DNA of 50,304 nt, from NCBI GenBank assembly GCA_002154345.1, contig MUNB01000051.1, positions 1 through 50,304 on the forward strand, in the 5' to 3' direction. Each line of letters opens with the position of its first letter. Position 1 is the first letter of the stretch. Of the stretch, positions 22,278-40,713 are shown piece by piece. Position numbers and translations under genes: made by a program. The DNA is from Streptomyces griseus. GTDB taxonomy: Bacteria; Actinomycetota; Actinomycetes; Streptomycetales; Streptomycetaceae. Under the pieces are notes generated by a model. The model worked only from the letters and a program-made list of their open reading frames with translations. It searched no databases and was not told the DNA's origin.

Positions 22278-23000
22278 TCAGACCGCCGCTGCGGTGGTCG
22301 GCAGGTCGATGCGGACCGTGCGGTCGCAGAGTCGTTCCACCTGCGCGGGGTCGTGAGAGACGAGCAGGACCGTCCGGTTGCCCCGCAGGGCTGCCACGGA
22401 CTCCTCGACGGTGTCGCGGCTCCGCTCGTCCAGGGCGCTGGTCGGCTCGTCGAGCAGGAGGGCCGCCGGTTCGAGGGCCAGGGCGCGGGCCAGGCAGAGT
22501 CGTTGGCGCTGGCCGTTGGAGAGGGTCTGGGCCGGCGTGTCCAGGCGGTCGGAGACCTCGTTCCACAGGCCCGCCTCGCGCAGTGCCTGCTCGGCGCGGT
22601 CGTGCAGTTCCGTCCGGGACGCCCGTACCAGGTGGCGGAGGCCGAACAGGGCGTTGTCCAGGATGCTGCCGCCGAAGACCACGGGGGTCTGCGGCACCAG
22701 GACGACCGTGCTGCGCAGGCCGGCGTCGCCCTTGGCGTACCGGACGGGACGGCCGAGGACCTGCACCTCACCTTCGCGACGGAGCCCGTGGGGCAGCAGG
22801 TCGACCAGGGCGCGCAGCACCGTGGACTTGCCCGCGCCCGACGGGCCGCACAGGCCGGTGGTGGATCCCGAGGCCAGCTCGAAGGTGACCGGTCCGACCA
22901 GGCGCTTCGTGCCGTCGAAGATCTGCAGGTCGCGGACCGCGATGACCGTCTTGTCGACCGCGTCGTCCAGCGGAGCGAGACCGGTTGTCACGTCGTCCAT
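22278..23000 (-). CDS. pstB: Phosphate ABC transporter ATPase (PstB-like)
   Basis: A 240-residue ABC ATPase with Walker A GPSGAGKST (52-60), signature LSNGQRQRL, Walker B ALLLDEPTSALD and the switch His in LLVSHD. Its assignment to phosphate rests mainly on its place after PstS and the fused permease. It is more divergent from canonical PstB than the other subunits (Q-loop in LVPQTPVVFGGSILDN), resembling uncharacterised phosphate/phosphonate ATPases. It overlaps the permease gene by 13 bases. In an arsenic island, phosphate uptake can outcompete arsenate, or can admit arsenate as a precursor. Confidence 0.75.
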   Translation of the reverse strand: MDDVTTGLAPLDDAVDKTVIAVRDLQIFDGTKRLVGPVTFELASGSTTGLCGPSGAGKSTVLRALVDLLPHGLRREGEVQVLGRPVRYAKGDAGLRSTVVLVPQTPVVFGGSILDNALFGLRHLVRASRTELHDRAEQALREAGLWNEVSDRLDTPAQTLSNGQRQRLCLARALALEPAALLLDEPTSALDERSRDTVEESVAALRGNRTVLLVSHDPAQVERLCDRTVRIDLPTTAAAV

Positions 23001-24820
23001 CGTCGGGCTCCTTCAAAGCGGTTGCGCAGAAAGACCGCGAGGCTGAGCAGGCCCGCGGTGATCAGGACCAGGACGAGAGCGCTGCCCCATGCCTGGGCGA
23101 TCGCCTCGGGGGCGCCCGAGTCCTGCGACAGGGTGAAGATGTGCGTGGGCAGGGCCTGGACCGGAGCGTTGACGATGCCGGTCGGGAGGGCGGGTGCCCC
23201 GAAGAACACCGTGGCGGTGAAGATCAGGGGGGCCGTCTCTCCCGCCGCGCGGGCCAGGCCGAGAAGCAGGCCGGTGAGCGTGGCCGGCCAGGTGTACGGG
23301 ATGACCACCGAGCGGACGTACTGGGAGCTCGTGAGGCCCAGCGCGAGCGCGGCCTCGGTGATTTCCGCAGGCATGCTCCGAATCCGGCCTGCCGTGGTGA
23401 GGGCGACCACCGGGATCACGACGGGCACCAGGACCACGGCGCCGGCCAGCCAGGAGCGGCCCCAGCCCATGGTCGTGCAGAAGAGGACGTACCCGGCGAG
23501 GCCCAGCAGGATCGTGGGCGTTCCGCCGACCGCCACGGTCAGCGTCTCCAGCACGCGAGCGGTCTTCGCCGAGGCACGCGTGCCGATCACGATGCCTGCT
23601 CCGTAGCCGAGCGGCAGTGCGATCAGGGCTGTGGTGGCAAGGAGCAGGAGGGTGCCGAGGATCTGGTCGCGGATACCGCCACCCGCCGCACCTTCGGAGG
23701 CCGTGAACCAGAAGACCGGATTGAGCGCCGCGCCGCCGCGGGCCAGCAGGATGCCGAGCATGCCGACGAGGAGTGCCCCCGGCAGCAGCAGGGCCCCGAG
23801 CCGGACTGCGGTGGTGAGCCGGTCCTTCGGGGTGCGCAGCCATGCGGAGGACCGCCGGGCACGTGGAACGCGTACGGCTCGTCCCGTGGAGCCGCGGGTG
23901 CCCCAGACGGTGGCGACGGCAACCAGGGTCAGCAGGATGATGCCCAGCCCGCACAGGGCCGCGAAGTACGGGCCGGAGGTGCCCGCGAGCATCGGCTCGG
24001 GGCCGGCCAGCTTGGTGGTGAGCGTCTGACCGGGGCGTACGAGGAAGGAGAAGACGTCTCCGAGTGACTCGGGGAGCCGGTCGTCGGCGCGGCCGATGAC
24101 CATGAAGACCGCGATGGCCTCACCCAGTGCCCGCGCCAGGCCGAGCAGGACGCCGGCCCGCATGCCGGGACGCGCTTGGGGCAGGACGGCCGACCGCACG
24201 ACCTCGCGCCGGGTCAGGCCGAGCGAGTACGCGGCCTCCCGGTACCGTCCGGGTACGGTGGCCAGCGCGTCCACGCTGACCGCCACGATCGTCGGCATGA
24301 TCATCACGGCGAGGACGATGCCGGCGGCGAGCAGGCTGTCTCCGCCCGGCACGTCACCGAGATCCGCCACGAACGGCCGGATCACCATGATGCCGATCAG
24401 GCCGTAGACGATGGAGGGGACCGCTGCCAGGAGTTCGATGCTCAGACGCAGCGGCTTGGCGAGACGAGGCGGAAGGTACTCGGACAGGGCGACGGCCGCC
24501 GCCCAGCCCACGGGGACGGCGAGAACCAGTGCCAGGACGCAGACGACCGCCGATCCGTAGATCATGGCCAGGCCGCCGAACGCGAGGTTCCCCGGACTCC
24601 AGGTGGACGAGGTGAGCAGTGCCGTCCAGTCGACGGTTCCGCTCGCGATGCCCGTGGCCAGGTAGCCGAGCAGGACCGTGAGGGTGAGCAGCACCGACAG
24701 GATGCCGCTGTAGGCCCAGCCCCAGACCCATCTCGCCCGGCTGCCGCGGCCGCTCCCGGGGGAGGGCCGCGGCACGGCGGGTCCGGGCGCCTGGGTGGGG
24801 CGCTCCAGAGTGAGACCCAT
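22988..24820 (-). CDS. Fused phosphate ABC permease, PstC and PstA in one chain
   Basis: A 610-residue protein with two complete permease domains. Residues about 30-310 resemble PstC (VGWAAAVALSEYLPPRLAKP; GRYREAAYSLGLTRREVVRS as its EAA loop). Residues about 330-610 resemble PstA (second EAA loop ITEAALALGLTSSQYVRSVV). Pst permeases are normally two separate ~300-residue proteins; here there is no stop or restart between them and frame is maintained. It starts 2 bases after the pstS stop and overlaps the ATPase gene, giving the operon pstS-pstCA-pstB. The fusion would give a pseudo-heterodimeric channel of fixed stoichiometry. Confidence 0.85.
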   Translation of the reverse strand: MGLTLERPTQAPGPAVPRPSPGSGRGSRARWVWGWAYSGILSVLLTLTVLLGYLATGIASGTVDWTALLTSSTWSPGNLAFGGLAMIYGSAVVCVLALVLAVPVGWAAAVALSEYLPPRLAKPLRLSIELLAAVPSIVYGLIGIMVIRPFVADLGDVPGGDSLLAAGIVLAVMIMPTIVAVSVDALATVPGRYREAAYSLGLTRREVVRSAVLPQARPGMRAGVLLGLARALGEAIAVFMVIGRADDRLPESLGDVFSFLVRPGQTLTTKLAGPEPMLAGTSGPYFAALCGLGIILLTLVAVATVWGTRGSTGRAVRVPRARRSSAWLRTPKDRLTTAVRLGALLLPGALLVGMLGILLARGGAALNPVFWFTASEGAAGGGIRDQILGTLLLLATTALIALPLGYGAGIVIGTRASAKTARVLETLTVAVGGTPTILLGLAGYVLFCTTMGWGRSWLAGAVVLVPVVIPVVALTTAGRIRSMPAEITEAALALGLTSSQYVRSVVIPYTWPATLTGLLLGLARAAGETAPLIFTATVFFGAPALPTGIVNAPVQALPTHIFTLSQDSGAPEAIAQAWGSALVLVLITAGLLSLAVFLRNRFEGARRWTT

Positions 24821-24822
24821 GA

Positions 24823-25743
24823 TCAGAGGCCCATCTGCTCACGCGTGAGGTAGCCGTGCCTGGGCAGCAGCTTCTGGCCCTCGGGCGAGAGGATGTAGTC
24901 GATGTACTGCTTGACGCCGTCCTCCGGCCTGCCGTTGGTGATCATGTACAGGGGGCGGGTCATCGGGTACTTGCCGGACGCCACGTTCTCCAGGGTGGGG
25001 GCGACGTCTTCCAGAGGCACGGCGACCAGCTCGGGGTGACCCTCGATGAAACCGGTGGACAGCGGGGCGATGGAACCGCGGGTGGACTTGAGCTTGTTGC
25101 GGGTCTCCAGGTTGCCGCCCACGATGGCGTAGTTCGCGGACTTGGGCGGGGCCGGCGCCTCGCCCTTGCCGTAGATGAACTTGTCGAGCACCTCACGGGT
25201 GCCGCGGCCGGGCTCCTTGTCGTAGACGAAGACCTGGAGGTCGGGGCCGCCGACCTCCTTCCAGTTGGTGATCTTCCCCTCGAACAGGCCCGCGACCTGC
25301 GTCTTGGTCAGGCCCTTGACTCCGCCGTCGGCCACTTCCTTCGTGATGATCACGCCGACGGCGTCCGCGCCGATCTGCGTGGTCACGAAGTCCGTGTCGG
25401 GGTAGGCCTTCTGGTCCTTCTCCGACAGAGGCTTGGAGCTCAGCGCGATGTTGATCTGGCCGGTGCCGAGCTGGGAGATTCCGCCGGCGGAGCCGCCCTG
25501 GGTGGCGACGGTGATGTTCAGGCCCTTGGCCTTCAGCGCCTCGGCCGCATCGGATGCCACCGGGGCGACGGTGGTGGAGCCGCTGGCCTGGATGGCGTCC
25601 GAGCCGGCCTTCGCGGAGCCGGCGCAGCCGGTCAGGGCGGCGGAGAGGAGGAGGGACGCGGAGGCGACGGAAGCGCCCTGGCGGACGCGCCGGCCGGTGA
25701 GGCGCGCTGCTCTGCTGCGGGATTCGGTGGACATGAAAGACAT
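24823..25743 (-). CDS. pstS: Phosphate-binding lipoprotein (PstS)
   Basis: A 306-residue binding protein. The N-terminus has a basic stretch, a hydrophobic core and lipobox LTGC, so it is an extracellular lipoprotein. The mature part starts with the phosphate-binding signature QASGSTTVAPV and has LSSKPLSEKD, FVYDKEPGRGTREVLDKFI and LSPEGQKLL, characteristic of PstS. ATG at 25743 has AAAGG 7 bases upstream. It is divergent from the arsL-like operon across an 851-base gap. Island PstS proteins may differ in phosphate/arsenate selectivity; the sequence alone does not show which way. Confidence 0.85.
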   Translation of the reverse strand: MSFMSTESRSRAARLTGRRVRQGASVASASLLLSAALTGCAGSAKAGSDAIQASGSTTVAPVASDAAEALKAKGLNITVATQGGSAGGISQLGTGQINIALSSKPLSEKDQKAYPDTDFVTTQIGADAVGVIITKEVADGGVKGLTKTQVAGLFEGKITNWKEVGGPDLQVFVYDKEPGRGTREVLDKFIYGKGEAPAPPKSANYAIVGGNLETRNKLKSTRGSIAPLSTGFIEGHPELVAVPLEDVAPTLENVASGKYPMTRPLYMITNGRPEDGVKQYIDYILSPEGQKLLPRHGYLTREQMGL

Positions 25744-26210
25744 GGCGGTGCCTTTGCGGTGGTGGAGGGACGGTGATCGGGGAACGCCGGTGGCGGATCG
25801 CCACCCGTAGGGCATGCGGGTCTGAGGTCGGGACCTGAAAAGAGGTGTGGACGTGAGCGCCGGTCGCGCCCCTGACGCGTGGACGGGGAGAGGCGCCGGA
25901 CGAGAGTGCGGGGGCGCCGGGAGGACGGTGTGTGACCACCGGGCCTGCGGATGACGACTGTTCAGGGCCTGAAGCCCGAACTCCCTGAGTTCTCTCTCGC
26001 TTGCAGGTTGAACTCGCGCCGGACCGTGGGGAGTTGCCGTCGGGTCCGCACGCGTCTCCGTGATTGAAGCTCGGCCCGCTCCCCTTTGAAGGGCCTGAAG
26101 AATCAAGGCGTCGGTAGCCGTTCACCCGCTGACCCCGGGTGCGGACCGTGATGCCGTGGCCGAACGCTACCGTCTCGGACTCGCCCTGGCGAGATCTGGT
26201 GGGGCGAAAT

Positions 26211-26392: not shown

Positions 26393-26537
26393 GGCGAATC
26401 GGGGCACTGATGCCCCGCGACGACGGTGGTCCGCAGGGATGGTCTTTGAGCCATTCATCGATCTATTGACATACATCGCTCAACGCTGGCAGGGTTCCGG
26501 CCGTCGGTCGGTCGACAGCGTCGTTACCGACCTGGGC
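26393..26537 (+). promoter_or_regulatory. Duplicated promoter-operator block, arsL-like operon copy
   Basis: About 145 bases are similar to 36925-37067, with near identity from AGCCATTCATCG (26449) onward. A -35 box TTGACA (26466-26471) and -10 box CAGGGT (26490-26495) are separated by 18 bases. The operator-like TCTATTGACATACATCG (26462-26478) overlaps the -35 box and resembles the sites flanking the minus-strand arsR at 45501-45863. Repression by an ArsR released by As(III) is the likely control. Confidence 0.75.
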
Positions 26538-26594: not shown

Positions 26595-27845
26595 GTGAGT
26601 AGTGCCCGTGTTCTGGTTGCCTCCGCGTTCGAAGCGGAGCTCCAGCCTCTGACGTCCGCGTGTGCGGCTGCCGCTCTGCAGCATCACGGCGCCGACGTCG
26701 TCGGCTGGGACGCGCACCTGCTTCCCGACGCCATTCCGGAAGGCCCCTTCGACCTCACGCTCGTCTCCGTCCAGCAGTTCGAGGGTCTTGAGCGGGGGAT
26801 CGCCCTGGCGCGCAGGGTCTCGGAGGCGTACGGCACCACGGTCGTGACCTTCGGCCAGTACGCGCAGATGAACCACCGGGAGTTCCTCGAGGTCGCCGAC
26901 GGCATCATCATGGAAGAGCCCGAGCTCATCAGCGAGGAGCTGGCCCAGCTCGCCGCCGGCACCCTCGCGCTCGACGCTGTGCCCGCCCTGATGACCCGCA
27001 CGGGCATGCGGCCCAAGCCCCCGCGCCGGCGCATCTCGGTCACCAAGCCCGCGCGGGACCTGTTCCCCTCGCTCGTGCACTACCCGGCGCACCACTCGCC
27101 GTTCGGCCTGATGGGTAACATCGAGGCCTCCCGCGGCTGCCACCACAAGTGCACCTATTGCTCCGTCTACGGCGCGTACGACGGTGGCGTCGCCGCCTAC
27201 GACGCCGACAGCGTCCTGGCCGACGCACTGCAGCTGGCGGAGGAGGGCGTCCGGCACTTCTGCTTCATCGACGCCGAGTTCTTCAATTCGCGCACCATCG
27301 GCATCGGTGTCGTCGAGCGTCTCGTCGAGGCCATCGGCCCGATCACCTTCGAGTTCACGACGCGCGTCGACCACGTCCTGGACTACACGAAGGAGCTGGA
27401 GAAGCTCGTCTCGCTCGGTCTGCGCCGCGTCACCTGCGCCCTGGAGTTCCCCTCCAACCGCATCCTGCGCATCTTCGACAAGCACATCGACGTCGACCAC
27501 ATGCGCGAGGCGGTCGACGAGGCCGAGCGGATCGGCTTCGAGCTGTACCCGACGTTCATCCCCTTCACCCCGTGGATCGAGTACGAGGAGCTCCTCTGCT
27601 TCGAGGACTGGCTGGTCGAGACGGGCCTGGCGCGGGTCACCGACCCCACCGCCCTGCAGACCCGGCTGCTGCTCTTCAAGGGCTCCCCGCTGCTCTCCTC
27701 GCCGTGGATGGAGGACATCGCCACCGTCGACCGAGGCTTCTGGGTGGAGTGGACGCATCCCGACAAGCGCGTCGAGGAGCTCTGGCAGGAGCGCCGGACC
27801 GACGCCGAAGACGCCGGCAAGATCCGCTGCTGCGTGAAGTGCTGA
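26595..27845 (+). CDS. arsL: Radical SAM enzyme, ArsL-like (3-amino-3-carboxypropyl transfer to arsenite)
   Basis: A 416-residue protein. Residues about 4-130 form a Rossmann-like B12-binding-type domain (RVLVASAFEAEL) without a DxHxxG motif. The radical SAM core follows with the [4Fe-4S] motif CHHKCTYC (C-x3-C-x2-C). It ends in RCCVKC, a cysteine-rich tail like that of ArsL, which in Burkholderia gladioli transfers the aminocarboxypropyl group of SAM to As(III), giving hydroxyarsinothricin plus MTA. GTG at 26595 has a GGGGGGAAG ribosome-binding site; earlier in-frame starts would read through the promoter. ArsM downstream, ArsN and an MTA salvage operon in the same island all fit. Function is inferred from motifs and context. 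Confidence 0.82.
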   Translation: MSSARVLVASAFEAELQPLTSACAAAALQHHGADVVGWDAHLLPDAIPEGPFDLTLVSVQQFEGLERGIALARRVSEAYGTTVVTFGQYAQMNHREFLEVADGIIMEEPELISEELAQLAAGTLALDAVPALMTRTGMRPKPPRRRISVTKPARDLFPSLVHYPAHHSPFGLMGNIEASRGCHHKCTYCSVYGAYDGGVAAYDADSVLADALQLAEEGVRHFCFIDAEFFNSRTIGIGVVERLVEAIGPITFEFTTRVDHVLDYTKELEKLVSLGLRRVTCALEFPSNRILRIFDKHIDVDHMREAVDEAERIGFELYPTFIPFTPWIEYEELLCFEDWLVETGLARVTDPTALQTRLLLFKGSPLLSSPWMEDIATVDRGFWVEWTHPDKRVEELWQERRTDAEDAGKIRCCVKC

Positions 27846-27875
27846 CCCACCCGCTCACACGAAAAGGACACTGAC

Positions 27876-29135
27876 ATGGGTGGATCACCCCGCGTCGTCA
27901 TCTCCACCGGCCAGGCCCTCCCGGACATGGACTGGACCGGCGAGCTCGCCGGGCTCACCGACTCGTGGCCGTACCTCGGCCCCACCTGGCTGCGCGCCAC
28001 GGAGAAGGTGCTCCCCGACATCCAGCCCTGGCACACTCTCGCCCACCGCGCCCGCGGCGAACTGGCCCTCCTCCCCGGTTGCATCCTCACCACCCCGCCC
28101 GTCGTCGACCACGAGCCGCGCACCTACCTGGGGTGGCAGGCGCCCTCCGGCGAAGAGGTGTGCTGCGGCGCCGAGACCGACGCCGCGCGCAGCGCCGAGG
28201 TCGACGCCCTGGGAACCGAGCCCTTCTTCCCGACCCTCCTCCTCGGCTCCCCGCTGGGCTACCGCACCGAGGTCGCCTACAACTTCTGGACGCCGACCCT
28301 GATGGGGGCGATCGTCGACAAGCTCGTGCCCGCCGCCTTCGAAGCCGGCATCCGCTGCATCGTCGCCCCCTGGATCCCCAATCGGCGCGGCAACGACGCC
28401 CTCGTCGACGCGCTCAACGCAGCCGGAGCGTCCAGCACCTTCTGGGGCTACGAGGACTTCATGAGCCTCGACGCGCCGAACTGGGAAGGACACCTCGCCG
28501 CCCTGCCGCTGAAGAAGCGCCAGCGCATCAAGGGCGACGTCCGCCGCGCCGAGGCCGCCGGCGTGACGATCGAGCGCGTCGACGGCACCGACATCCGCCC
28601 CTACATCGCCCGCATCGCCGAACTCACCTGCCTCAACAGGGAGAAGAACGGCGCCGGCGAGGAGCCCGAGCACATCGTCGGTATCCTCTCCGCGCTCATC
28701 GACGAGGGCGCGGACGTCCGCGCCTACCTGGGCTACAAGGACGGCGCGTTGGTCGCCACCTGCGTCACCATCCGCAAGAACCACCGCCTCTTCCCGAAGT
28801 GGGCCGGCTTCGACTACGCGGCGATCGGCGAGCGCAGCGGCATCTACTTCGCCCTCGTCCTCGACGCGCCCGTCCGCGACGCCTACGCCGAAGGGCTGCG
28901 CACCGTCGAGTTCGGCGCCGGAGCCCACCAGGCGAAGGCGCTGCGCGGCTGCACGCCGCGCGAGGTCACCACCTCGATGCTGCTCTCCGACCCGGCGCTG
29001 CGGCCGCAGGCGAAAGCCTGGCTCGACGCTTTCGGCAACAGCAGGCGCGCCGCGTTCGGCGCCGCGTCCCCCGCCCCGGCCCAGCCCGCGAACCTGCCCC
29101 TCTTGGGCGGATCGGGCGACAGCTGCTGCGGCTGA
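27876..29135 (+). CDS. FemAB/GNAT-like protein (peptidoglycan-bridge aminoacyltransferase-like)
   Basis: A 419-residue soluble protein whose middle (ALPLKKRQRIKGDVRRAEAA) and later segments (YLGYKDGALVATCVT; FPKWAGFDYAAI) match the tandem-GNAT FemAB_like fold (COG3146 type, 'peptidogalycan biosynthesis/recognition'). FemAB-type enzymes transfer amino acids from aminoacyl-tRNA to amines. It ends in DSCCG, a vicinal cysteine pair able to bind As(III). It lies 30 bases after the arsL-like gene and 37 bases before the CobW gene, with the AAAAGGACACTGACATG leader typical of this operon. A role in tailoring the organoarsenical, such as aminoacylation or acylation, is inferred; it is not in the described minimal arsinothricin pathway. 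Confidence 0.7.
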   Translation: MGGSPRVVISTGQALPDMDWTGELAGLTDSWPYLGPTWLRATEKVLPDIQPWHTLAHRARGELALLPGCILTTPPVVDHEPRTYLGWQAPSGEEVCCGAETDAARSAEVDALGTEPFFPTLLLGSPLGYRTEVAYNFWTPTLMGAIVDKLVPAAFEAGIRCIVAPWIPNRRGNDALVDALNAAGASSTFWGYEDFMSLDAPNWEGHLAALPLKKRQRIKGDVRRAEAAGVTIERVDGTDIRPYIARIAELTCLNREKNGAGEEPEHIVGILSALIDEGADVRAYLGYKDGALVATCVTIRKNHRLFPKWAGFDYAAIGERSGIYFALVLDAPVRDAYAEGLRTVEFGAGAHQAKALRGCTPREVTTSMLLSDPALRPQAKAWLDAFGNSRRAAFGAASPAPAQPANLPLLGGSGDSCCG

Positions 29136-29172
29136 CCCCGCCCGACTCCACGACAAGGACGAGAAGGACCAC

Positions 29173-30279
29173 ATGATCACCTTCATCCCCCTGACCGGAT
29201 TCCTCGGGGCGGGCAAGACCACGACCATGACCGCCGCCGCGCTCGCGCTCCAGGCGCAGGGCCGCAAGGTCGCCGTCATCACCAACGACCAGGGCGTCGA
29301 ACTGGTCGACACCAAGCTGGTGCGCAGCAAGCTCGACAGCGTCGCCGAGGTCACCGGCGGCTGTTTCTGCTGCAAGTTCGAGGACCTCGTCGAGGCCATC
29401 GTCGCGCTCGTCGCCTCCGACAGCGTCGACACGGTGATCGCCGAAGCCGTCGGCAGCTGCACGGACCTCCAGGCCACCGTCGTACGACCGCTGCGCCAGT
29501 ACTACGGCGACGACATGGTCGTCGCCCCGCTGACCACCGTGGTCGACCCGCTGCGGCACCTGGCCTTCGCCCGTGCCGTCGAGCGGGGCGAGCCGGAGTC
29601 GGATCTGTCGTACCTCTTCCGCCAGCAGGTCACCGAGGCCGACGTCATTGCCGTGAACAAGCTGGACACCATCAAGGCCGACCGGGCCGAGGAGCTGCTC
29701 GCCTCGCTCCGCACGAGCAACCCCAAGGCGACCGTCGTCGGTTACTCGGCCACCACGGGCGCCCGCCTGGAGACGCTGCTCGACGCGTGGCAGGCGCCGG
29801 CGACGAACGAGGACGTCGTCCTCGACATCGACTACGACCGCTACGCGGCCGCCGAGGCCCAGCTCGCCTGGATGAACCAGGAGCTCGACCTCACCGCCGC
29901 CGGGGACGGTTTCGACGCGACCGCGTGGGCCCGCACCGTCCTTCAGGAGCTGTCCGGCTGGGCCGCGGAGCACGACGCCGTGATCGGCCATGCCAAGATC
30001 ACCGTGGAGACGGCCGACGGCGACTTCGCCAAGCTCAGCCTCACCGAGTCCGGCGCGCAGCCCACCCTCGACCGCGCCGCCGACGCGCACGCGCCGGCCG
30101 GCCGGGCCTTCGTCAACGCCCGGGTCGCCTGCGAGCCCGACGCCCTGGACGCGGCCGTCACCGAGGCCGTCAAGGCCGCCGACCTGGCCGCCGCCGTCAC
30201 CTCCTCGGCGACCACCCCGGTGTCGTTCAAGCCCTCCTACCCGCGCCCCGTGCACCGCCTCGCCCCCGCCGGCGCCTGA
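29173..30279 (+). CDS. CobW/G3E-family GTPase, putative metallochaperone
   Basis: A 368-residue P-loop GTPase with Walker A GFLGAGKTT (9-17), the metal-binding GGCFCC (CxCC) motif, a Walker B-like VIAEAVGS and the base-recognition VNKLD. The C-terminal domain is shorter and less conserved than in CobW_C proteins. G3E GTPases deliver metals such as Zn, Co or Ni to client enzymes. In this operon the client could be the radical SAM enzyme, the methyltransferase or an arsenic-loading step, where the CxCC motif might bind As(III) itself. It sits 37 bases after the FemAB-like gene and 19 bases before arsM. Confidence 0.82.
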   Translation: MITFIPLTGFLGAGKTTTMTAAALALQAQGRKVAVITNDQGVELVDTKLVRSKLDSVAEVTGGCFCCKFEDLVEAIVALVASDSVDTVIAEAVGSCTDLQATVVRPLRQYYGDDMVVAPLTTVVDPLRHLAFARAVERGEPESDLSYLFRQQVTEADVIAVNKLDTIKADRAEELLASLRTSNPKATVVGYSATTGARLETLLDAWQAPATNEDVVLDIDYDRYAAAEAQLAWMNQELDLTAAGDGFDATAWARTVLQELSGWAAEHDAVIGHAKITVETADGDFAKLSLTESGAQPTLDRAADAHAPAGRAFVNARVACEPDALDAAVTEAVKAADLAAAVTSSATTPVSFKPSYPRPVHRLAPAGA

Positions 30280-30298
30280 CCGAGAAGGACCACCCGTC

Positions 30299-31081
30299 AT
30301 GAGCGACACCACCACTGCCGGCAGCCTGCAGGAAGAGGTCCGGGAGTACTACCGGGCCAAGGCCGCGGAAGCCGAGACGAGCGGCGCCTGCTGCTCGCCC
30401 GACCCGCAGACCTTCGGTCCCGCCGCGTACGACGAGATCGGCCCCGGTACCGCCCCGGACGCCGCCCTCCTCGCCAGCCTCGGCTGCGGCAACCCGAGCG
30501 CCGTCGCCGAACTGCGCGAAGGCGAGACGGTCCTGGACCTCGGCTCCGGCGGCGGCCTGGACGTCATCCTCAGCGCCCGGCGCGTCGGCCCCGACGGCCG
30601 CGTCTTCGGCCTGGACTTCCTGGAGGAGATGCTCGCCCTCGCCGCGCGCAACGTCGCCGACGCCGAGATCGACAACGTCGTCCTCCTCAAGGGCACGATC
30701 GAGGCCATCCCGCTGCCCGCCGACACCGTCGACGTGATCATCTCCAACTGCGTGATCAACCTGTCGCTGAACAAGCCCGCCGTCTTCGCCGAGATGGCGC
30801 GCGTCCTCACCCCCGGCGGCCGCCTCGGCATCAGCGACGTCGTCGCAGAGGACCGGCTCAGCCCCGAGGAGCGGGCCGAACGGGGCGGACACAGCCAGTG
30901 CATCGCCGGCGCCCTCTCGGTGGCCGAGTACAAGGAACTCCTCGACGCGGTCGGCCTGAAGGACGCGGAGGTCGTGTTCACGCAGGAGGCGGCCGACGGC
31001 CTTCACGCCGCGATCATCCGCGCGCACAAGCCGGTCGATGCCGACGCGCAGGAGTGTGAGCCCGGCGGCACCTGCTGCTGA
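30299..31081 (+). CDS. arsM: As(III) S-adenosylmethionine methyltransferase (ArsM)
   Basis: A 260-residue class I methyltransferase. The SAM motif DLGSGGGLD is at 80-88. The arsenic-binding cysteines of ArsM are present: vicinal C31-C32 (GACCSP), C151 (SNCVINL) and C201 (HSQCIAGAL). A C-terminal GGTCC adds a further cysteine pair. In the arsinothricin pathway ArsM methylates trivalent hydroxyarsinothricin; in general resistance it methylates arsenite. Its place in the arsL-like operon points to the first role. ATG at 30299 has AGAAGG upstream. A strong terminator follows at 31098. Confidence 0.92.
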   Translation: MSDTTTAGSLQEEVREYYRAKAAEAETSGACCSPDPQTFGPAAYDEIGPGTAPDAALLASLGCGNPSAVAELREGETVLDLGSGGGLDVILSARRVGPDGRVFGLDFLEEMLALAARNVADAEIDNVVLLKGTIEAIPLPADTVDVIISNCVINLSLNKPAVFAEMARVLTPGGRLGISDVVAEDRLSPEERAERGGHSQCIAGALSVAEYKELLDAVGLKDAEVVFTQEAADGLHAAIIRAHKPVDADAQECEPGGTCC

Positions 31082-31134: not shown

Positions 31135-31486
31135 GCACCGTTGTACTCGCCCGCGTCCCCTCGTGACCGTGGGCGGACGACCACGCTCCCGATGGCTCGA
31201 CCGGTCCGCACTCCGCCGCTGCCGACGGTGTGGAGGCGATCCCCGTGGCCGCCAAGGATTCCCATGTCCTCCACACCGTCCGCTTCCTGACCAGGCGCCG
31301 GGCCGGTGCCAGCATCCGGTACGCCGTCAACCCCCGTTGCATCACCGAGTTCCCCAGCGCCGCCGACATCCTCATCGGCGCACCGGTCCACTCGTGCGGG
31401 GAACCGGAATCCAGCTGAAGGCCCTGCGGTCGCAGCCGTTCCGCAGGCGTCTGCCGAGCAGGTCCGAACCGTGAGCAGAGCAGATC

Positions 31487-31677: not shown

Positions 31678-32244
31678 TCAGGCCGCGACGGTGACGCTCG
31701 CGGCGGCCTTGCGCTTGTCGGCAAGGGCGGCGAGGTACCGCTCCGCGTCGAGTGCGGCCTGGCAGCCGGAGCCCGCGGCCGTGATGGCCTGGCGGTAGGT
31801 GTGGTCGACGACGTCGCCGGCGGCGAAGACTCCCGGCAGGTTCGTGCGGGTGGAGGTGTCGCGCAGGACGACGCCGGCGCGCATGCCGTTCTCGGCCTTG
31901 ATCTCCGCGATCTCGCTGTCGGTGACTTCCTTGATGTCTCCGGTCAGGTCGACGGAGACGATGTCGTCGTCGATCATCTCCGCGCCGAAGCGTTCGGCCT
32001 GGGCCCTCATGTTGTCCATGAGGTCGGGTCCGTCGATTCCGGTGGGGAAGCCGGGGAAGTTCTCGACCTCGGTCGTCGTGGTCAGGGACCCTCCGACGAA
32101 GATCGAGCTGCCGAAGAGCAGGGGCCTGAGCTGGGCGCGGGCCGTGTAGAGGGCTGCGGTGTATCCGGCGGGTCCGGAGCCTATGACGATCACCTCACGG
32201 ACGTCGTCCACGGTCGCAGGGTTCGAGTCGGTCAAGAGAGTCAC
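31678..32244 (-). CDS. arsT: Internally deleted thioredoxin reductase (ArsT remnant)
   Basis: A 188-residue protein with the FAD-binding start of thioredoxin reductase ([20 protein letters not shown]) and its authentic C-terminus ([20 protein letters not shown], then [20 protein letters not shown]). The normal ~320-residue protein is missing its centre: the redox CATC motif and NADPH-binding domain are absent. A fragment ([20 protein letters not shown]) survives in the middle, so two separate deletions occurred and both kept the frame. It cannot reduce thioredoxin. GTG at 32244 overlaps the arsC stop (GTGA), as expected for the arsC-arsT order in Streptomyces arsRBOCT loci. It could be a pseudogene or a retained FAD-binding domain. 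Confidence 0.75.
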
Positions 32245-32660
32245 GCCTCCTGCTTCGCGTCGATCTCGGCGATGAGGCCCTCGATCAGGACCTTGATCTC
32301 GTCACGGATCGGGCGGACGGCCTCGATACCCTGGCCGGCCGGATCCTCCAGGGCCCAGTCGAGGTACTTCTTGCCGGGGAAGACCGGGCAGGCGTCGCCG
32401 CAGCCCATGGTGATGACGTAGTCGGACGCCTGGACGGCCTCGGTGGTCAGCACCTTGGGCTGCTGGTCGGAGATGTCGACGCCGACCTCGGCCATGGCCT
32501 CGAGGGCGGCCGGGTTGACCTGGTCGCCAGGAATCGAACCGGCGGAGCGGACCTCGACGCGGTCGCCGGCCAGGTGGCGCAGGAATCCGGCGGCCATCTG
32601 GGAGCGGCCCGCGTTGTGGACGCAGACGAAGAGCACGGACGCGAGCGGAGCGGTGGTCAT
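32241..32660 (-). CDS. arsC: Arsenate reductase, low-molecular-weight phosphatase type (ArsC)
   Basis: A 139-residue reductase with the catalytic P-loop C13-x5-R19 ([11 protein letters not shown]) and a downstream [12 protein letters not shown] carrying the resolving cysteines. It reduces arsenate to arsenite for export by Acr3 or use by ArsM/ArsL, drawing electrons from thioredoxin or mycothiol; the matching reductase gene next door is internally deleted. It is divergent from arsR-acr3 across a 71-base promoter gap. Confidence 0.92.
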
Positions 32661-32731: not shown

Positions 32732-33040
32732 ATGATGACGTCAGTCGATACTGATCTGATCCGGGTTCTGGCGGATCCCCTCAGGCTCCAGATCGTGACC
32801 CTGCTCGCCCGCGAGACCCTCTGCACCACCCACCTCGTCGAGGAGACGGGCGCCAAGCAGACCAACCTCTCCAACCACCTGCGCGTGCTGCGCGAGGCCG
32901 GTGTGGTGGAGACGGAGCCCTGCGGTCGCTTCACGTACTACCGCCTGAAGCCGGACGTCATCGCCCAGCTGGCCGGCCAGTTCGCCGACCTGGCCGCATC
33001 CGCCCGTACCGCTGCCGAGAACAAGAGGGCCTGTCCGTGA
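32732..33040 (+). CDS. arsR: ArsR-family arsenic-responsive repressor (arsR-acr3)
   Basis: A 102-residue winged-helix repressor (TTHLVEETGAKQTNLSNHLR as recognition helices; YYRL wing). Cysteines in ETLCTTH and TEPCGRF are candidate As(III) ligands, as in actinobacterial ArsR types. ATG at 32732 or 32735 may start it. GTGA overlap couples it to acr3. It is closely similar to the arsR at 36239, suggesting the arsC/arsR pair was duplicated. Confidence 0.9.
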   Translation: MMTSVDTDLIRVLADPLRLQIVTLLARETLCTTHLVEETGAKQTNLSNHLRVLREAGVVETEPCGRFTYYRLKPDVIAQLAGQFADLAASARTAAENKRACP

Positions 33041-34119
33041 CCCCCACCCAAGCCCCCTCTCAGGCGGCGGATTCCTCGGTCGTCGCGAAGCTGTCGACGC
33101 TGGACCGCTTCCTCGCCGTCTGGATACTCCTCGCCATGGGCCTCGGCCTCGGGCTCGGGCGGCTGATCCCCGGCCTGAACGACGCTTTGGCCGAGGTCGA
33201 GATCGGCGGCATTTCACTGCCCATCGCCGTGGGCCTGCTGATCATGATGTACCCGGTACTCGCCAAGGTCCGGTACGACAGGCTCGACGCCGTCACCGGC
33301 GACAAGAAACTCATGGTCTCGTCGCTCATCGTCAACTGGGTCCTCGGCCCGGCGCTCATGTTCGCGCTGGCCTGGATCTTCCTGCCGGACCTGCCCGAGT
33401 ACCGCACCGGCCTGATCATCGTCGGCCTGGCCCGCTGCATCGCCATGGTCATCATCTGGAACGACCTCGCCTGCGGCGACCGCGAGGCCGCCGCCGTCCT
33501 CGTCGCCCTGAACTCCGTCTTCCAGGTCATCGCCTTCGGCGTCCTGGGCTGGTTCTACCTCGACCTGCTGCCCGGCTGGCTCGGCCTCGGCGAGGGCGAG
33601 ACGCTCGACATCTCGATGGGGAAGATCGCCCTGAACGTCGTCATCTTCCTCGGCGTTCCGTTGGCGGCCGGGTTCCTCACCCGCCGGATCGGTGAGAGGA
33701 GGATGGGCCGGGAGCAGTACGAGACGAGGTTCCTGCCGAAGACCGGACCGTGGGCGCTCTACGGGTTGCTCTTCACGATCGTCATCCTCTTCGCCCTTCA
33801 GGGGAAGACCGTCACCTCGCAGCCGCTGGACGTCGCGAGGATCGCGCTGCCGCTCCTCGTCTACTTCGCGGTGATGTGGTTCGGCACCTTCGCCCTCGGC
33901 AAGGCGATCGGCCTCACCTACGACCGCACCGCAACGCTCGCCTTCACCGCCGCCGGCAACAACTTCGAGCTCGCCATCGCCGTCGCCATCGCCACCTTCG
34001 GCGTCACCTCCGGCCAGGCCCTCTCCGGAGTCGTCGGCCCCCTCATCGAGGTCCCGGTCCTGGTCGCGCTCGTGTACGTGTCGCTGGCCTGGCGCAGGAA
34101 GTTCGCCCCTGCCCAGTAG
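33037..34119 (+). CDS. acr3: Arsenite efflux permease (Acr3)
   Basis: A 360-residue carrier with about ten membrane helices. The conserved cysteine lies in LARCIAMVIIWNDLACG and the conserved glutamate in AAGNNFELAIAVAIATFG, both hallmarks of Acr3 arsenite/H+ antiporters. GTG at 33037 overlaps the arsR stop (GTGA). It expels As(III) and is probably the main arsenite resistance determinant of the island. It lies upstream of arsO on the same strand. Confidence 0.93.
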   Translation: MTPTQAPSQAADSSVVAKLSTLDRFLAVWILLAMGLGLGLGRLIPGLNDALAEVEIGGISLPIAVGLLIMMYPVLAKVRYDRLDAVTGDKKLMVSSLIVNWVLGPALMFALAWIFLPDLPEYRTGLIIVGLARCIAMVIIWNDLACGDREAAAVLVALNSVFQVIAFGVLGWFYLDLLPGWLGLGEGETLDISMGKIALNVVIFLGVPLAAGFLTRRIGERRMGREQYETRFLPKTGPWALYGLLFTIVILFALQGKTVTSQPLDVARIALPLLVYFAVMWFGTFALGKAIGLTYDRTATLAFTAAGNNFELAIAVAIATFGVTSGQALSGVVGPLIEVPVLVALVYVSLAWRRKFAPAQ

Positions 34120-34198
34120 TAGCCCCGCCGAAACGCTACTCTGCGCCTCGCCTCTCCGCGGGGGCGAGGTGCAGCCGTATGAAGGGAAAGGCGATGAG

Positions 34199-35257
34199 AT
34201 GAGCAAGGCACTCGATGTCGTCGTGATCGGCGGTGGCCAGTCGGGACTCGCCGTCGGATACCACCTGCGCCGCCTCGGCGGCCTCGACTTCGCCGTCCTG
34301 GACGCGCAGCCCGCGCCGGGTGGGGCCTGGCGACACGCGTGGGACTCGTTGCACCTCTTCTCGCCGGCCGCGTACTCCTCCCTGCCCGGTCGCCTCATGG
34401 CGCCACAACAGGGGGAGACGTATCCCGAGGCCGCCCACGTCGTCGACTACCTCACCGACTACGAGCAGCGCTACGAGCTCCCCGTGCAGCGGTTCGTTCG
34501 CGCGGAGGCGGTCCGCCGCGACGGAGAGTACCTTCGCGTCGAGACCGATTCCGGTGTCTGGCGCGCCCGCGCCGTCGTCAGTGCCACCGGAACGTGGTCA
34601 CGGCCGTTCCTTCCCTCTGTCCCGGGCCGTGGCTCATTTCTGGGGCGGCAGCTTCACACCGTCGAGTACCGCACCCCAGGTGAGTTCGCCGGAATGCGGG
34701 TCATCGTCGTCGGCGGCGGGAACTCCGGAGCGCAGATCGCCGCCGATCTCGCGTACGACACCGACCTCACCTGGGTCACTCAGCGGCCCGCACGGTTCCT
34801 GGCCGACGACATCGACGGCCACGCCCTCTTCGACCACGCCACGGCCCGCCGCCGCGCCCTCGACGAAGGCCGCACCGACGGCGGGGGAGTCGCCTCCCTC
34901 GGTGACATCGTCGCCGTTCCGCCCGTACGCGAAGCCCGCGACGCGGGCCTCCTCACGTCGCAGCCGATGTTCACGCGCGTGACGGAGACCCGCGTCGAGT
35001 GGGCTGACGGGACGCGGGCCGAGGCTGACGCGATCATCTGGTGCACCGGCTTCCGTCCCGCTCTCGCCCACCTTGCCCCACTCGGGCTACGCGGTCCGCG
35101 CGGACACATCCCCACCTGGGGGACAGAGGCTCTCGAAGAGCCCCGCCTTCATCTGCTCGGGTACGGCGACTGGACCGGGCCGGCCTCAGCGACCCTTGTC
35201 GGCGTCGGCCGTCCCGCACGCGAGGCCGCGCGGTCCATCGCAGCCCTCCTGCGCTGA
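34199..35257 (+). CDS. arsO: Flavin-dependent monooxygenase (ArsO)
   Basis: A 352-residue flavoprotein with FAD motif VIGGGQSGLAVGYHL (GxGxxG near residue 11) and a second NADP motif VIVVGGGNSGAQIAADL, the layout of class B monooxygenases/ArsO. It has the acr3-arsO order of Streptomyces arsRBOCT clusters. Its reaction on arsenic is not firmly established. ATG at 34199 has GAAGGGAAAGG upstream; a GTG at 34169 is in frame but poorer. Confidence 0.83.
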   Translation: MSKALDVVVIGGGQSGLAVGYHLRRLGGLDFAVLDAQPAPGGAWRHAWDSLHLFSPAAYSSLPGRLMAPQQGETYPEAAHVVDYLTDYEQRYELPVQRFVRAEAVRRDGEYLRVETDSGVWRARAVVSATGTWSRPFLPSVPGRGSFLGRQLHTVEYRTPGEFAGMRVIVVGGGNSGAQIAADLAYDTDLTWVTQRPARFLADDIDGHALFDHATARRRALDEGRTDGGGVASLGDIVAVPPVREARDAGLLTSQPMFTRVTETRVEWADGTRAEADAIIWCTGFRPALAHLAPLGLRGPRGHIPTWGTEALEEPRLHLLGYGDWTGPASATLVGVGRPAREAARSIAALLR

Positions 35258-35726: not shown

Positions 35727-36142
35727 TCATCCGGTTCCGTGCGCCGGAGTCACGTCCATCGCTGCGATGAGATCCTCGACGAGGCCCCTGATGGCGTCAC
35801 GGATGGGGCGCACCGCGTCCACGCCCTGCCCGGCCGGGTCGTCCAGCTTCCAGTCGGGGTAGCGCTTGCCGGGAAACACCTCGCAGGTGTCCCCGCAGCC
35901 CATCGTGACGCACACGTCCGACTCGCTGGCGGCATCCGCGTGGTGAGAATCTTGGGGACCTCCGCGGACATGTCGATGCCGACTTCACGCATCGCCTCTA
36001 CCGCCGCCGGGTTGACCGCCGAGGCCGGCGCGGAGCCCGCCGAACGGACCTCGATCCGGTCGCCGGCCACGTGGCGAAGTCATGCGGCGGCCATCTGGGA
36101 CCGGCCTGCGTTGTGCATGCATGCGAACAGGACGGAGGGCAT
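35727..36142 (-). pseudogene. arsC: Decayed second arsenate reductase (arsC)
   Basis: Clear ArsC sequence in broken frames. It starts [20 protein letters not shown], then an in-frame TGA stop at 36080-36082 replaces one residue, then LRHVAGDRIEVRSAG continues to KILTT. A one-base loss near 35941 shifts the frame, and the rest (VTMGCGDTCEVFPG onward) reads in the next frame to the stop at 35727. The catalytic P-loop cysteine is kept but the protein cannot be made whole. It sits back-to-back with an arsR (36239) exactly as the intact arsC/arsR pair does. Sequencing error at two sites is a less likely alternative. Confidence 0.85.
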
Positions 36143-36238
36143 CCGGGACACCTGCGTCTCCTCAAATGGGTTGTTGTGGAAAGGCGTTGAAAGTCGGACG
36201 GTCGATACACGTTGTACTTGGTGTGTCACGATCGGGGC

Positions 36239-36547: not shown

Positions 36548-37128
36548 AAGTCCGGCCGCTTCACCTTCGGAGCGTCCCCGCCGTCTCGACGTCCACTCGC
36601 CCCTGACGCCATGGGCTGAGGATCTCGATCCGGGCGCGAACGTTACCCCCTCCGAGCGCCTCCCGCGACCCCGGTGCAGGTGACTTGACCGTGGCGGTGA
36701 CCGAGTGGGGGAAGGGATATCAGGTGTCCTCTGTCGCTCTGCATCATCGATGGCCACCGATTGAAATGCGCCGTGCGTCAACACAGCCCAGAGCCTCCCG
36801 CGACCCTGGCGGCGGAATCTGCTGGCGTCGCAAGACGAACCTGATCGCTCTCGCCTTTTACAGGTTTCATCTGCGCGAATGGCCACCCCGGGTAACCTGG
36901 CCGTCTTTCGCACCCCCAGACGTGAGCGAATCGGGGCAGGTGTGCCGTGCGGCGGTGACGCCGAGGAAGGTGGGCACCTTCAGCCATTCATCGATCTATT
37001 GACATACATCGCTTGACGCTGGCAGGGTTCCGGCCGTCGGCCGAACAGCGCCGTTGCCGATCTGGGCTCCACCCCGCTCCGTCGGCCCGCCCCGGCCCCG
37101 ACCACACGTCGACGCAAAGGTTCCCGCC
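36548..37128 (+). promoter_or_regulatory. 580-base gap with the ligase-mtn promoter
   Basis: No protein-coding gene is supported between the arsR stop and the ATP-grasp start. The downstream part (36925-37067) is the second copy of the duplicated promoter-operator block. The first 370 bases show no recognisable element. Confidence 0.6.
36925..37067 (+). promoter_or_regulatory. Duplicated promoter-operator block, ligase-mtn operon copy
   Basis: This is the second copy of the 26393-26537 block. The -35 box TTGACA (36999-37004) and -10 box CAGGGT (37023-37028) again have an 18-base spacer, and the operator-like TCTATTGACATACATCG lies at 36995-37011. The shared run AGCCATTCATCGATCTATTG is exact. 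Start codon of the ligase gene is about 100 bases downstream of the -10 box, leaving a long leader. Confidence 0.75.
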
Positions 37129-38391
37129 ATGGCCGCCACGCCCCGCCCGCACTCGCCCGTCACCGAGGCACCGGTCCTGCTCCTCATGGGCAGCGGTGAC
37201 CGCCGCTATCGGGAGTACATCGTGGCGGCCGTCTCGCGCCACTTCCGCCTGTGGCTTCTCGACGCGTACGAGCCGAGCTGGCAACTGCCGTACATGGAGG
37301 GGACCTCGCTCCTCGACACCAAGGACCTCGACGCCCTCCTCGTCGAGGCGAAGAAGGTCATGCAACAGCTGCCGGTCGCGGGGGTCTTCACCTACGACGA
37401 GTCCCTCGTGCACGCCGCCGCGCGCCTCGCCGAAGCCCTCGGCCTGCCCGGAAGCGCGCCCGACGCGGTGCTCTCCTGCCGTGACAAGGCGGCCACTCGG
37501 GCACGGCTCTCGGCGGCCGACGTGCCGCAGCCGGCCTGCACCCCGGTCTCCACGGCGGCCGAGGCACGCCGTGCCGCCGACGCGACCGGCTACCCGGTGG
37601 TGGTCAAGGCCCGTGGTCTCGCCGGCAGTCTCGGTGTCGTCCGGGCCGACCACGGCGACGCCGTAGAGGCGGCGTTCGAGGCGGCGAGCTCCGCCAACTG
37701 GCCCGGAGTACCCCGTTACGAGGCCGACGTCCTGGTCGAGGAGTACCTCACCGGACCCGAGATCAGCATCGACGCGGTCGTCGTCGACGGCGTGTGCACC
37801 CCCATGATCGTGGCACGCAAGCAGACCGGCATGGACCCGTACTTCGAGGAGACCGGCCACACCGTCGACGCCACCGACCCCCTCCTGCAGGACGCCGAAC
37901 TCCTGGACCAACTGCACCGCATCCACAAGGCGCTCGGCTTCGAACGCGGTGCTACTCACACCGAGTTCAAGCTCACCCCCGAGGGGCCGCGCCTCGTCGA
38001 GATCAACGCGCGCCTCGGCGGCGACTTCATTCCCCTCATCGGCATGCTCGCGACCGGCACCGATACCGCCGTCGCCGCTGCTCACGTGGCGGCCGGGCTC
38101 ACCCCCGACACCGCGCCGAAGGCGCAGAAGAACGCAGCCATCAGGTTCCTCTACCCGGAGCGCGACTGCGAGGCGGTCGAAGTGGTCGTCCGCACCGACC
38201 TCTTCGGGCCCACGGTGCACAGCGCGGTCGCGACGGCCGGCCCCGGCACCCGGCTGGCACTTCCGCCCCGGGCGTACATGAACCGCTACGGCTACGTCAT
38301 CGCCGTCGGCGAGGACCCCGAGCAGGTGACCGCCGACGTGGAGGCCGGGCCCACGCTGATCGAACTGCGGTCGCGTCCCCTGACCGACTGA
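37129..38391 (+). CDS. ATP-grasp ligase, putative amide-bond-forming enzyme
   Basis: A 420-residue ATP-grasp protein. The N-terminal domain begins VLLLMGSGDRRYREYI; the ATP-binding lysine region is YPVVVKARGLAGSLG, the lid VLVEEYLTGPEISIDAVV, and the Mg2+-binding end LVEINARLGGDFIPLIG. This fits the amino-acid ligase/carbamoyl-phosphate-synthase-like branch that joins a carboxylate to an amine through an acyl phosphate. It heads the mtn operon under the same promoter type as the arsL-like operon, so its substrate may be the organoarsenical amino acid, giving a peptide or amide. The exact substrates cannot be read from sequence. ATG at 37129 is preferred over 37054, which reads across Pro/Arg-rich non-coding sequence. 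Confidence 0.8.
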   Translation: MAATPRPHSPVTEAPVLLLMGSGDRRYREYIVAAVSRHFRLWLLDAYEPSWQLPYMEGTSLLDTKDLDALLVEAKKVMQQLPVAGVFTYDESLVHAAARLAEALGLPGSAPDAVLSCRDKAATRARLSAADVPQPACTPVSTAAEARRAADATGYPVVVKARGLAGSLGVVRADHGDAVEAAFEAASSANWPGVPRYEADVLVEEYLTGPEISIDAVVVDGVCTPMIVARKQTGMDPYFEETGHTVDATDPLLQDAELLDQLHRIHKALGFERGATHTEFKLTPEGPRLVEINARLGGDFIPLIGMLATGTDTAVAAAHVAAGLTPDTAPKAQKNAAIRFLYPERDCEAVEVVVRTDLFGPTVHSAVATAGPGTRLALPPRAYMNRYGYVIAVGEDPEQVTADVEAGPTLIELRSRPLTD

Positions 38392-40137: not shown

Positions 40138-40713
40138 ATGACCTTGCTGCAGATCATGCCGGACGACGCACCGGACACCGTACTGCTCCACACGCGGGAC
40201 GAGGAGGCCATCGCACAGGCCCTGCGCGAGAGGTCGGTCTCCTTCACCCGCTGGCCGCTGCGCGCACAGGCCACGCCGCAGACGGCGTCCGAGGAACTGC
40301 TCGACGCCTACCGGGCGGAGATCGACGAACTGTGCGCCCGCCAGAAGCTGAGCCTCGTCGATGTCGCCCGCCTCCACCCCGAGGAGGGAGCGGAGTGGCA
40401 GGAGCGCGCGGCCAAGGCCCGGTCGACGTTCCTCGACGAGCACCGGCACGCCGAGGACGAGGTCCGGTTCTTCGCCCACGGCACCGGCTGCTTCTACCTG
40501 CACCTGGAGGACCGCGTGTACGCCGTGGTCTGCGAGGCCGGAGACCTGCTGTCGGTCCCGGCCGGCACCCGGCACTGGTTCGACATGGGACCCGTACCGG
40601 ACTTCTGCGCCATCCGGTTCTTCGAGAAGGAGGACGGCTGGGTGGGCGACTTCACCCAGGAGCCCATCGCCGATGGCTTCCCCCGCCTAGACGCGCTACT
40701 GCGGGAGGGCTGA
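40138..40713 (+). CDS. mtnD: Acireductone dioxygenase (MtnD)
   Basis: A 191-residue cupin. The metal ligands are complete: His102, His104 and Glu108 in EHRHAEDEVRFF, and His146 in AGTRHWFDMG. With Fe2+ this enzyme makes 4-methylthio-2-oxobutanoate, the direct methionine precursor; with Ni2+ it makes an off-pathway product. It overlaps mtnC by one base (TGATG). Confidence 0.93.
   Translation: MTLLQIMPDDAPDTVLLHTRDEEAIAQALRERSVSFTRWPLRAQATPQTASEELLDAYRAEIDELCARQKLSLVDVARLHPEEGAEWQERAAKARSTFLDEHRHAEDEVRFFAHGTGCFYLHLEDRVYAVVCEAGDLLSVPAGTRHWFDMGPVPDFCAIRFFEKEDGWVGDFTQEPIADGFPRLDALLREG

Follow-up and report, generated by a model that had tools for sequence, protein, structure and literature searches.

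Putative arsinothricin-type biosynthesis genes of Streptomyces griseus lie beside predicted amino acid ligases and a methionine salvage operon

The window examined here, by which we mean the whole 50,304-nucleotide stretch of contig MUNB01000051.1 of Streptomyces griseus, carries an arsenic-linked island around a gene for the radical S-adenosylmethionine (SAM) protein ArsL. That gene heads a four-gene operon (arsL, a FemAB-like gene, a cobW-family GTPase gene and arsM) whose limits are the arsL start at 26595 and the arsM stop at 31081 and whose intergenic gaps, from translation and alignment, are 19 to 37 bases. The initial annotation had described this operon, including the CHHKCTYC and RCCVKC motifs of its radical SAM protein, and translation, alignment and Pfam/NCBIfam searches agree with that description. 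It had passed over a second operon, ATP-grasp-mtnABDCP, about 10.5 kb downstream of the arsL start, a promoter-like element common to both operons, and the predicted fold and recurrence of the FemAB-like protein; taken together, these suggested to us that the product is a peptide derivative. Coordinates are collected in Table 1.

ArsL and the core operon

ArsL scores 489.1 bits against the NCBI curated model NF040542 ("arsinothricin biosynthesis radical SAM protein ArsL"; cut-off 450) and contains the motifs C182HHKC186TYC189 and R411CCVKC416. Both the CX3CX2C motif and the RCC-KC tail are invariant in all 13 aligned ArsL sequences (the window, eight actinobacterial and four proteobacterial), and the best match is not an unrelated family lacking the RCC tail, so the identification as ArsL stands. 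Because the protein exceeds the curated cut-off, the operon likely carries out arsinothricin-type chemistry, and on sequence grounds the likely function of ArsL is the transfer of the 3-amino-3-carboxypropyl group from SAM to As(III). According to the available text of PMC8552651, expression of arsL from Burkholderia gladioli in Escherichia coli yields hydroxyarsinothricin (AST-OH), arsL together with arsM yields arsinothricin (AST), and ArsL is proposed to generate an aminocarboxypropyl radical. Excerpts of PMC11794875 state, for related chemistry, that aminocarboxypropyl cleavage from SAM leaves methylthioadenosine (MTA). A B12-dependent ArsL was considered and rejected, with weak resemblance to B12-radical-SAM families and no B12-binding domain in the Pfam result. 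The arsL start codon is GTG, preceded by a GGGGGGAAGT stretch. A sister family of ArsL is represented at L084 (6566-11210, minus strand) by a radical SAM protein with a CCAEP tail (NF040546, 620.8 bits against a cut-off of 500), in a run that also holds a DUF169 gene, an ArsR-like gene and a 608-residue ATP-grasp protein.

Since NCBI records already name Streptomyces proteins of this kind ArsL, the gene by itself is not new; what is new is its surroundings, namely the second operon, the common element, the mtn linkage and the recurrence of FemAB. Our actinobacterial set comprises 25 arsL loci: 21 named ones (L004-L024), the window, G360, G271 and G458. The order arsL-femAB-cobW-arsM is kept in 18 of the 21 named loci, at ArsL identities of 64 to 99%, and the four-gene operon is therefore more than a chance arrangement. 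The exceptions are L021, where the contig ends early, L022, which lacks arsM there, and L024, which lacks cobW and has arsM elsewhere. The CobW motif G63-C64-F65-C66-C67 is invariant in 10 of 10 aligned proteins; the solved structures matched are YjiA-type proteins and one other GTPase only, and they cover the nucleotide-binding part. A plasmid origin of the core operon was rejected, as no near match occurs among 72,556 plasmid records except a 460-base piece of arsM at 76.7% in one of them.

Compared with the arsQML genes of B. gladioli GSRB05, as given in excerpts of PMC8552651, the window has the same CX3CX2C motif in ArsL, a neighboring arsM and surrounding ars genes, and the RCC-KC tail is common to its ArsL and the aligned proteobacterial relatives. 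It differs in having another type of ArsM, in lacking an identified ArsQ (no ArsQ profile was run), and in the addition of femAB, cobW, ATP-grasp and mtnABDCP genes.

Predicted amino acid ligases

The FemAB-like gene follows arsL in all 25 actinobacterial loci. Because sequence searches gave no solved relative of its product better than E 0.98, a structure model was made (predicted local distance difference test, pLDDT, 86.7). The model adopts the FemX/Sbb17/MprF fold, a tandem GNAT arrangement that is nearest to the tRNA-dependent FemABX-type members, and its top 22 structural matches are users of aminoacyl-tRNA. On this model, the protein is predicted to be an aminoacyl-tRNA-dependent transferase. 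It resembles in this respect the GNAT enzymes of dehydrophos and other aminoacyl-tRNA-dependent pathways (DhpH, DhpK, VlmA, PacB and Orf11; excerpts of PMC12945691), in which a FemX-like transferase extends a small amino acid, or an analogue of one, by a further residue; it differs in that the substrate would be an arsenical, in its conserved Cys-Cys pairs, and in its 9-15% identity to the solved enzymes.

The Cys-Cys pairs lie at residues 96-97 and 417-418, and each is found in 14 of 15 aligned arsL-branch FemAB-like proteins. A wider list of 120 homologues includes 97 with at least 410 residues; the tail pair occurs in 86 of these, and 93 carry a pair within the first 220 residues. When a mechanically called set of 146 open reading frames of at least 150 residues was scanned (14 loci, 8 without arsL), 15 ended in Cys-Cys, and all 15 are ArsL, FemAB, ArsM or ArsI. 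The Lentzea FemAB (L024) has no CC tail; behind the arsL-femAB pair of this locus come ABC transporter genes, among them one for an SBP_bac_3 binding protein (13148-16083).

Across 391 genomes of the order, FemAB-like matches occur in 21: all 10 genomes with an ArsL over the cut-off, 7 without such an ArsL (47-51% identity), and 4 with weak matches. The seven paralogues have seven to nine Cys-Cys pairs and a CCG end. Each of their seven loci (L115-L121) encodes an EPSP synthase homologue (BsnM-like) and an iPGM homologue (BsnN-like), together with homologues of a class I aminotransferase, of a LuxR-type regulator and of a glutamine amidotransferase; arsR-type, pst and distant ArsP-like matches lie in the vicinity. 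This gene set is much of the bisenarsan-type set for carbon-arsenic (C-As) bond formation, as described in excerpts of PMC12159101. The combination of EPSP synthase and iPGM homologues with an aminotransferase beside FemAB suggests that the pathway at these loci passes through arsonoalanine. The bisenarsan (bsn) clusters of Streptomyces share with the window an arsenic-linked island, and a FemAB-like paralogue is present in the seven loci with BsnM/BsnN-type homologues; bsn clusters differ in that the same excerpts propose a C-As bond made without SAM enzymes, and in having no ArsL. No BsnM/BsnN-type homologue is present in the window at E 1e-10, nor any iPGM match in the window genome (G000) at E 1e-40.

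The iPGM type itself was found in 23 of the 391 genomes, and FemAB accompanies it in seven. Four of the other 16 were looked at, and two Streptomyces loci among these iPGM-type loci without FemAB, L127 (1262-7818, minus strand) and L129 (13159-16740, plus strand), contain several ATP-grasp genes, with an SCC end in three of the four proteins scanned. They are possible arseno-peptide clusters of another kind. Also encoded in L127 are an M28 peptidase and a protein of the carboxymuconolactone decarboxylase family with a TCC end.

The ATP-grasp protein of the window, which has no SCC tail, matches solved L-amino-acid ligases ahead of other ATP-grasp classes when compared as a profile (BL00235, 4.2e-27; BacD, 2e-23). 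The match spans residues about 68-307 and is distant; the protein is predicted to join amino acids by an amide bond. Besides the window, G360, G271 and G458, 16 of the 21 named loci have an ATP-grasp gene close to arsL. A distant ATP-grasp gene also occurs in the arsM-arsL run of Vogesella (L029, 2249-8621), which reads ATP-grasp, an open reading frame weakly like ArsM, an MFS exporter, an arsM-like gene, arsL and a phosphate-permease-like gene.

Methionine salvage linkage, pathway and alternatives

Behind the ATP-grasp gene, the second operon encodes the full MTA phosphorylase route (MtnP, A, B, C and D), each over curated cut-offs, with MtnD by Pfam alone. In 14 of the 25 actinobacterial loci, mtnA and arsL are no more than about 13 kb apart. 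On a tree of 36 mtnA rows, three changes are required to account for the arsL-linked label, two or more of them forced by well-supported branches, and the label falls on a Streptomyces clade, Amycolatopsis pretoriensis and Lentzea; the 22 unlinked rows are genes already fetched rather than a random sample, and shuffles of the tree show clustering of the label only, not independent origins. The A. pretoriensis gene is neighbored by mtnC, mtnB and mtnD. In G271, just two genes, one arsR-like and one arsC, separate the core operon from the ATP-grasp-mtn block behind it. This adjacency, in 14 of 25 loci and three lineages, fits recycling of the MTA that ArsL would release, which is the likely role of the Mtn set. 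Sister mtnABDCP sets lie beside a SAM synthetase gene at L101 and beside a nonribosomal peptide synthetase gene at L104 (by Pfam) and L105 (by likeness to L104), and mtnABDCP may be a reusable module for recycling MTA in other biosynthetic clusters too. Open-access literature searches gave, among the matches listed, no paper joining organoarsenic with methionine salvage.

The two operons are tied together by a 65-bp repeat whose copies, one ahead of arsL and one ahead of the ATP-grasp gene, are 94% identical. When the 7.8 Mb genome was searched for the 48-bp core of this repeat, with two unconstrained positions and up to three mismatches allowed, exactly two copies were present, and the reversed control gave none. 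Both copies were matched by blastn in 11 of 15 other Streptomyces loci (L004-L016, G360 and G271). The simplest reading, from sequence, is that the element is probably a common, arsenic-responsive promoter of both operons.

On balance, and with modest confidence, we read the island as making an arsinothricin-type arseno-amino acid, recycling MTA, and likely joining the arsenical to amino acids as an arseno-peptide. AST-OH and MTA would come from ArsL, for which CobW is predicted to act as a metal(loid) or cofactor chaperone; MtnP-A-B-C-D would return the MTA towards methionine and in this way recover most of each SAM consumed, and ArsM would methylate the arsenical. The FemAB-like protein, judging from its fold, Cys pairs and neighborhood, may grip the trivalent arsenical by its Cys-Cys pairs and attach an amino acid donated by aminoacyl-tRNA, after which a second amide bond, formed by the ATP-grasp ligase, may give an arsenic counterpart of phosphonate peptides, a transportable pro-drug. 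The producer would be protected by ArsN1-like acetylation, ArsP, Acr3 and ArsO. What the analysis shows is the gene content and how far it is conserved, the element common to both operons, the recurrent mtn linkage and the fold of the structure model; formation of the arseno-peptide, which we infer, is the weakest step.

A number of observations weigh against this reading, beginning with chemistry at the arsenic. Window and proteobacterial ArsL are only 35-38% identical. ArsM falls below both arsinothricin ArsM models (112.4 against 500 bits for NF040538; 57.2 against 240 for NF040539), its nearest model being the general arsenite methyltransferase (245.3 against 263), and the acetyltransferase misses both ArsN1 cut-offs (126.2 against 170 bits for NF040503; 94.3 against 210 for NF040504). 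The label ArsN of the initial annotation, nearest to ArsN1 family A and below its cut-off, accordingly holds only as "ArsN1-like", and since both proteins miss the specific cut-offs, the earlier statement that the locus makes arsinothricin or a derivative is more safely worded as an arsinothricin-type arsenical. An ArsQ-like exporter was not identified in the window, for which no ArsQ profile was run.

The ligases raise points of their own. FemAB-like genes are found at none of six proteobacterial arsL loci and are missing from 16 of the 23 genomes with the iPGM gene. The model is only 9-15% identical to solved enzymes of its fold, its C-terminal Cys pair sits in a disordered tail (pLDDT under 50), and 11 of the 97 longer homologues lack the tail pair, three close ones having separated cysteines. 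Eight of the 15 aligned FemAB-like proteins match an acyl-CoA-like pattern, seven of them at residue 234. Five of the 21 named loci (L019, L021 at a contig end, L022, L023 and L024) showed no ATP-grasp gene in the neighborhood of arsL. As for the second operon, 11 of 25 arsL loci have no linked mtnA, including three genomes without any mtnA match (Streptomyces gardneri, Streptomyces filamentosus and Kineosporia) and L021 near its contig end; the A. pretoriensis mtnA is divergent and below the TIGR00512 cut-off (187.5 against 279); and the second element copy is absent from 4 of 15 loci (L013 or ISL-100, L014, L015 and L016), where only the arsL copy was matched. ISL-100 has mtn genes despite its single copy.

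Of the alternatives, the one that survives best, which we still consider unlikely, is that plain arsinothricin or AST-OH is made and that the role of the ATP-grasp and FemAB-like proteins is self-protection through reversible capping, or else the management of arsenic traffic, with no peptide exported. Two enzymes suffice in B. gladioli, according to the excerpts of PMC8552651; the proteobacterial loci as fetched lack FemAB in six of six cases and ATP-grasp in five of six, and an ArsN1-like capping enzyme is already present. Against it stand the constant position of FemAB behind arsL in Actinobacteria, its paralogue beside an unrelated C-As pathway, and the two further iPGM-type loci with several ATP-grasp genes and SCC-ending proteins. 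Less likely again is an island for arsenic resistance only, in which ArsL and its partners serve to detoxify arsenite, the organoarsenical formed being harmless and not an antibiotic. The density of ars genes (acr3, arsO, arsP and arsI by profile, arsC by sequence) would fit this, and similar reasoning has been published for bisenarsan (excerpts of PMC12159101), yet SAM-costly chemistry, ligases and ArsN1-like self-protection would exceed the needs met by Acr3 efflux.

It is more doubtful still that the mtn genes restore general methionine salvage after loss of a housekeeping copy and have hitch-hiked to their position, unrelated to the MTA of ArsL. The cluster copy is the sole mtnA in seven genomes, and no mtnA match exists in S. 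gardneri or S. filamentosus, whose loci lack the mtn block between ATP-grasp and arsN; mtnA is over the cut-off in 174 of 199 Streptomyces searched. However, the window genome and ISL-100 retain a second, housekeeping-type mtnA, linkage to arsL occurs on three mtnA lineages, and the window mtn operon carries the arsL element. We give least credence to the FemAB-like protein being an acyl-CoA-dependent GNAT that N-acylates an arseno-amino acid or arsenic-thiol adduct for storage or transport, since its 22 best structural matches use aminoacyl-tRNA and the Q/RxxGxG/A pattern, which the ArsN1-like neighbor has as RGTGVG, is unmatched in the window protein and six other members and is thus not conserved.

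Returning to the arseno-peptide reading, its product would be likened to phosphinothricin tripeptide (bialaphos), a pro-drug that carries a glutamine synthetase-blocking glutamate analogue in peptide form and that is assembled by peptide synthetases through a phosphonate route. In the window, arsenic would replace phosphorus, ArsL the phosphonate route, and stand-alone ligases the peptide synthetases. The phosphinothricin cluster comprises 24 genes (excerpts of PMC8552651). More tentatively, and with less confidence than in the local pathway, we propose that Actinobacteria hold a hidden class of arsenic peptides, in which the ArsL and BsnMN-type C-As routes, chemically unrelated to one another, each recruit Cys-Cys-gripping amino acid ligases (FemX-fold and tRNA-dependent in both; SCC-tailed ATP-grasp in two further iPGM-type loci), the SAM by-product of the ArsL branch is recycled by a salvage operon dedicated to it and co-regulated, and the window product is the arsenic counterpart of bialaphos. 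Bacterial organoarsenical natural products are rare (excerpts of PMC12159101), and open-access searches with arseno-peptide terms returned no bacterial C-As peptide in the passages matched, which concern arsonopyruvate and arsenic-peptide complexes. A FemX-type ligase that two C-As pathways have in common, and whose Cys pairs would suit trivalent arsenic, offers a handle for genome mining; the mtn link predicts that ArsL releases MTA and that MTA recycling limits production; and the reading bears on antibiotics directed at glutamine synthetase.

Neighboring genes

The remaining genes of the island are listed in Table 1. An ArsP-like permease, as proposed earlier, is borne out by its profile score.

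Table 1. Features of the S. griseus window, with strand and supporting evidence (scores in bits, followed by the cut-off where given).
Feature	Position	Strand	Evidence
pstB, fused pstC/pstA and pstS, phosphate transport, upstream of arsL	22278-25815	-	PstS TIGR02136 166.6, below cut-off 206.6; others named from sequence
48-bp promoter-like element upstream of arsL, core of 65-bp repeat (26446-26510)	26456-26503	+	
arsL, radical SAM, 416 residues, CX3CX2C and RCCVKC tail	26595-27845	+	NF040542
FemAB-like tandem-GNAT gene	27876-29135	+	PF13480/PF04339 (Pfam)
cobW-family GTPase, GCFCC motif	29173-30279	+	PF02492 103.8
arsM, SAM methyltransferase of arsenite-methyltransferase type, C-terminal GTCC	30299-31081	+	PRK11873 245.3 (263)
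arsC-like arsenate reductase	32241-32660	-	Named from sequence
acr3, arsenite efflux	33037-34119	+	TIGR00832 433.9 (282.8)
arsO, flavin monooxygenase	34169-35257	+	NF040505 543.4 (425)
Second 48-bp promoter-like element, before ATP-grasp/mtn operon	36989-37036	+	
ATP-grasp ligase of L-amino-acid-ligase type	37129-38391	+	Solved-structure profile matches
mtnA	38429-39454	+	TIGR00512 387.6 (279)
mtnB	39451-40113	+	TIGR03328 165 (137.05)
mtnD, acireductone dioxygenase	40138-40713	+	PF03079 108.1 (27); no NCBIfam match at E 0.001
mtnC, enolase-phosphatase	40713-41495	+	TIGR01691 235.4 (128.1)
mtnP, methylthioadenosine phosphorylase	41488-42309	+	TIGR01694 303.1 (274.85)
ArsN1-like N-acetyltransferase, predicted self-protection	42390-42908	-	Nearest NF040503 (ArsN1 family A), below cut-off
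ArsP-family permease	43041-44261	-	ArsP_1 PF03773 137.5 (32.3)
FAD protein distantly ArsO-like	46060-47514	+	NF040505 55.7 (425)
arsI/cadI, GGCC tail	47552-48025	+	NF041414 202.8 (116)

The core operon is flanked by the pst genes and by a shortened reductase gene, and the distant permease at 1140-2420 is of DctM type. The pst genes hold the same position relative to arsL in L004-L012. Phosphate transport genes recur near arsL elsewhere, as PHO4-type genes in L015 (by Pfam), L020 and L022 (by sequence), and an aquaporin-family gene lies beside arsL in L023; such neighbors possibly serve arsenic uptake. Of the 21 named loci, 17 have an arsC match in the flanking sequence that was fetched. Divergent from arsL at L015 (Streptomyces albidus; 7584-9491, minus strand) is a radical SAM methyltransferase for maturation of ribosomally synthesized and post-translationally modified peptides (TIGR03975, 621.4 against 281.85 bits), and by sequence a gene of L021 (Labedaea; 3797-5938, minus strand) appears to resemble it; none was noticed in the window, where no dedicated search was made. 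Finally, the window contains several gene remnants: an arsR remnant without its DNA-binding part behind arsM (31230-31420, plus strand), a thioredoxin-reductase-like gene cut down to 188 residues (31678-32244, minus strand), a second arsC copy split over two frames (35750-36200, minus strand), and a 135-residue ArsK-like MFS piece (48016-48423, plus strand).

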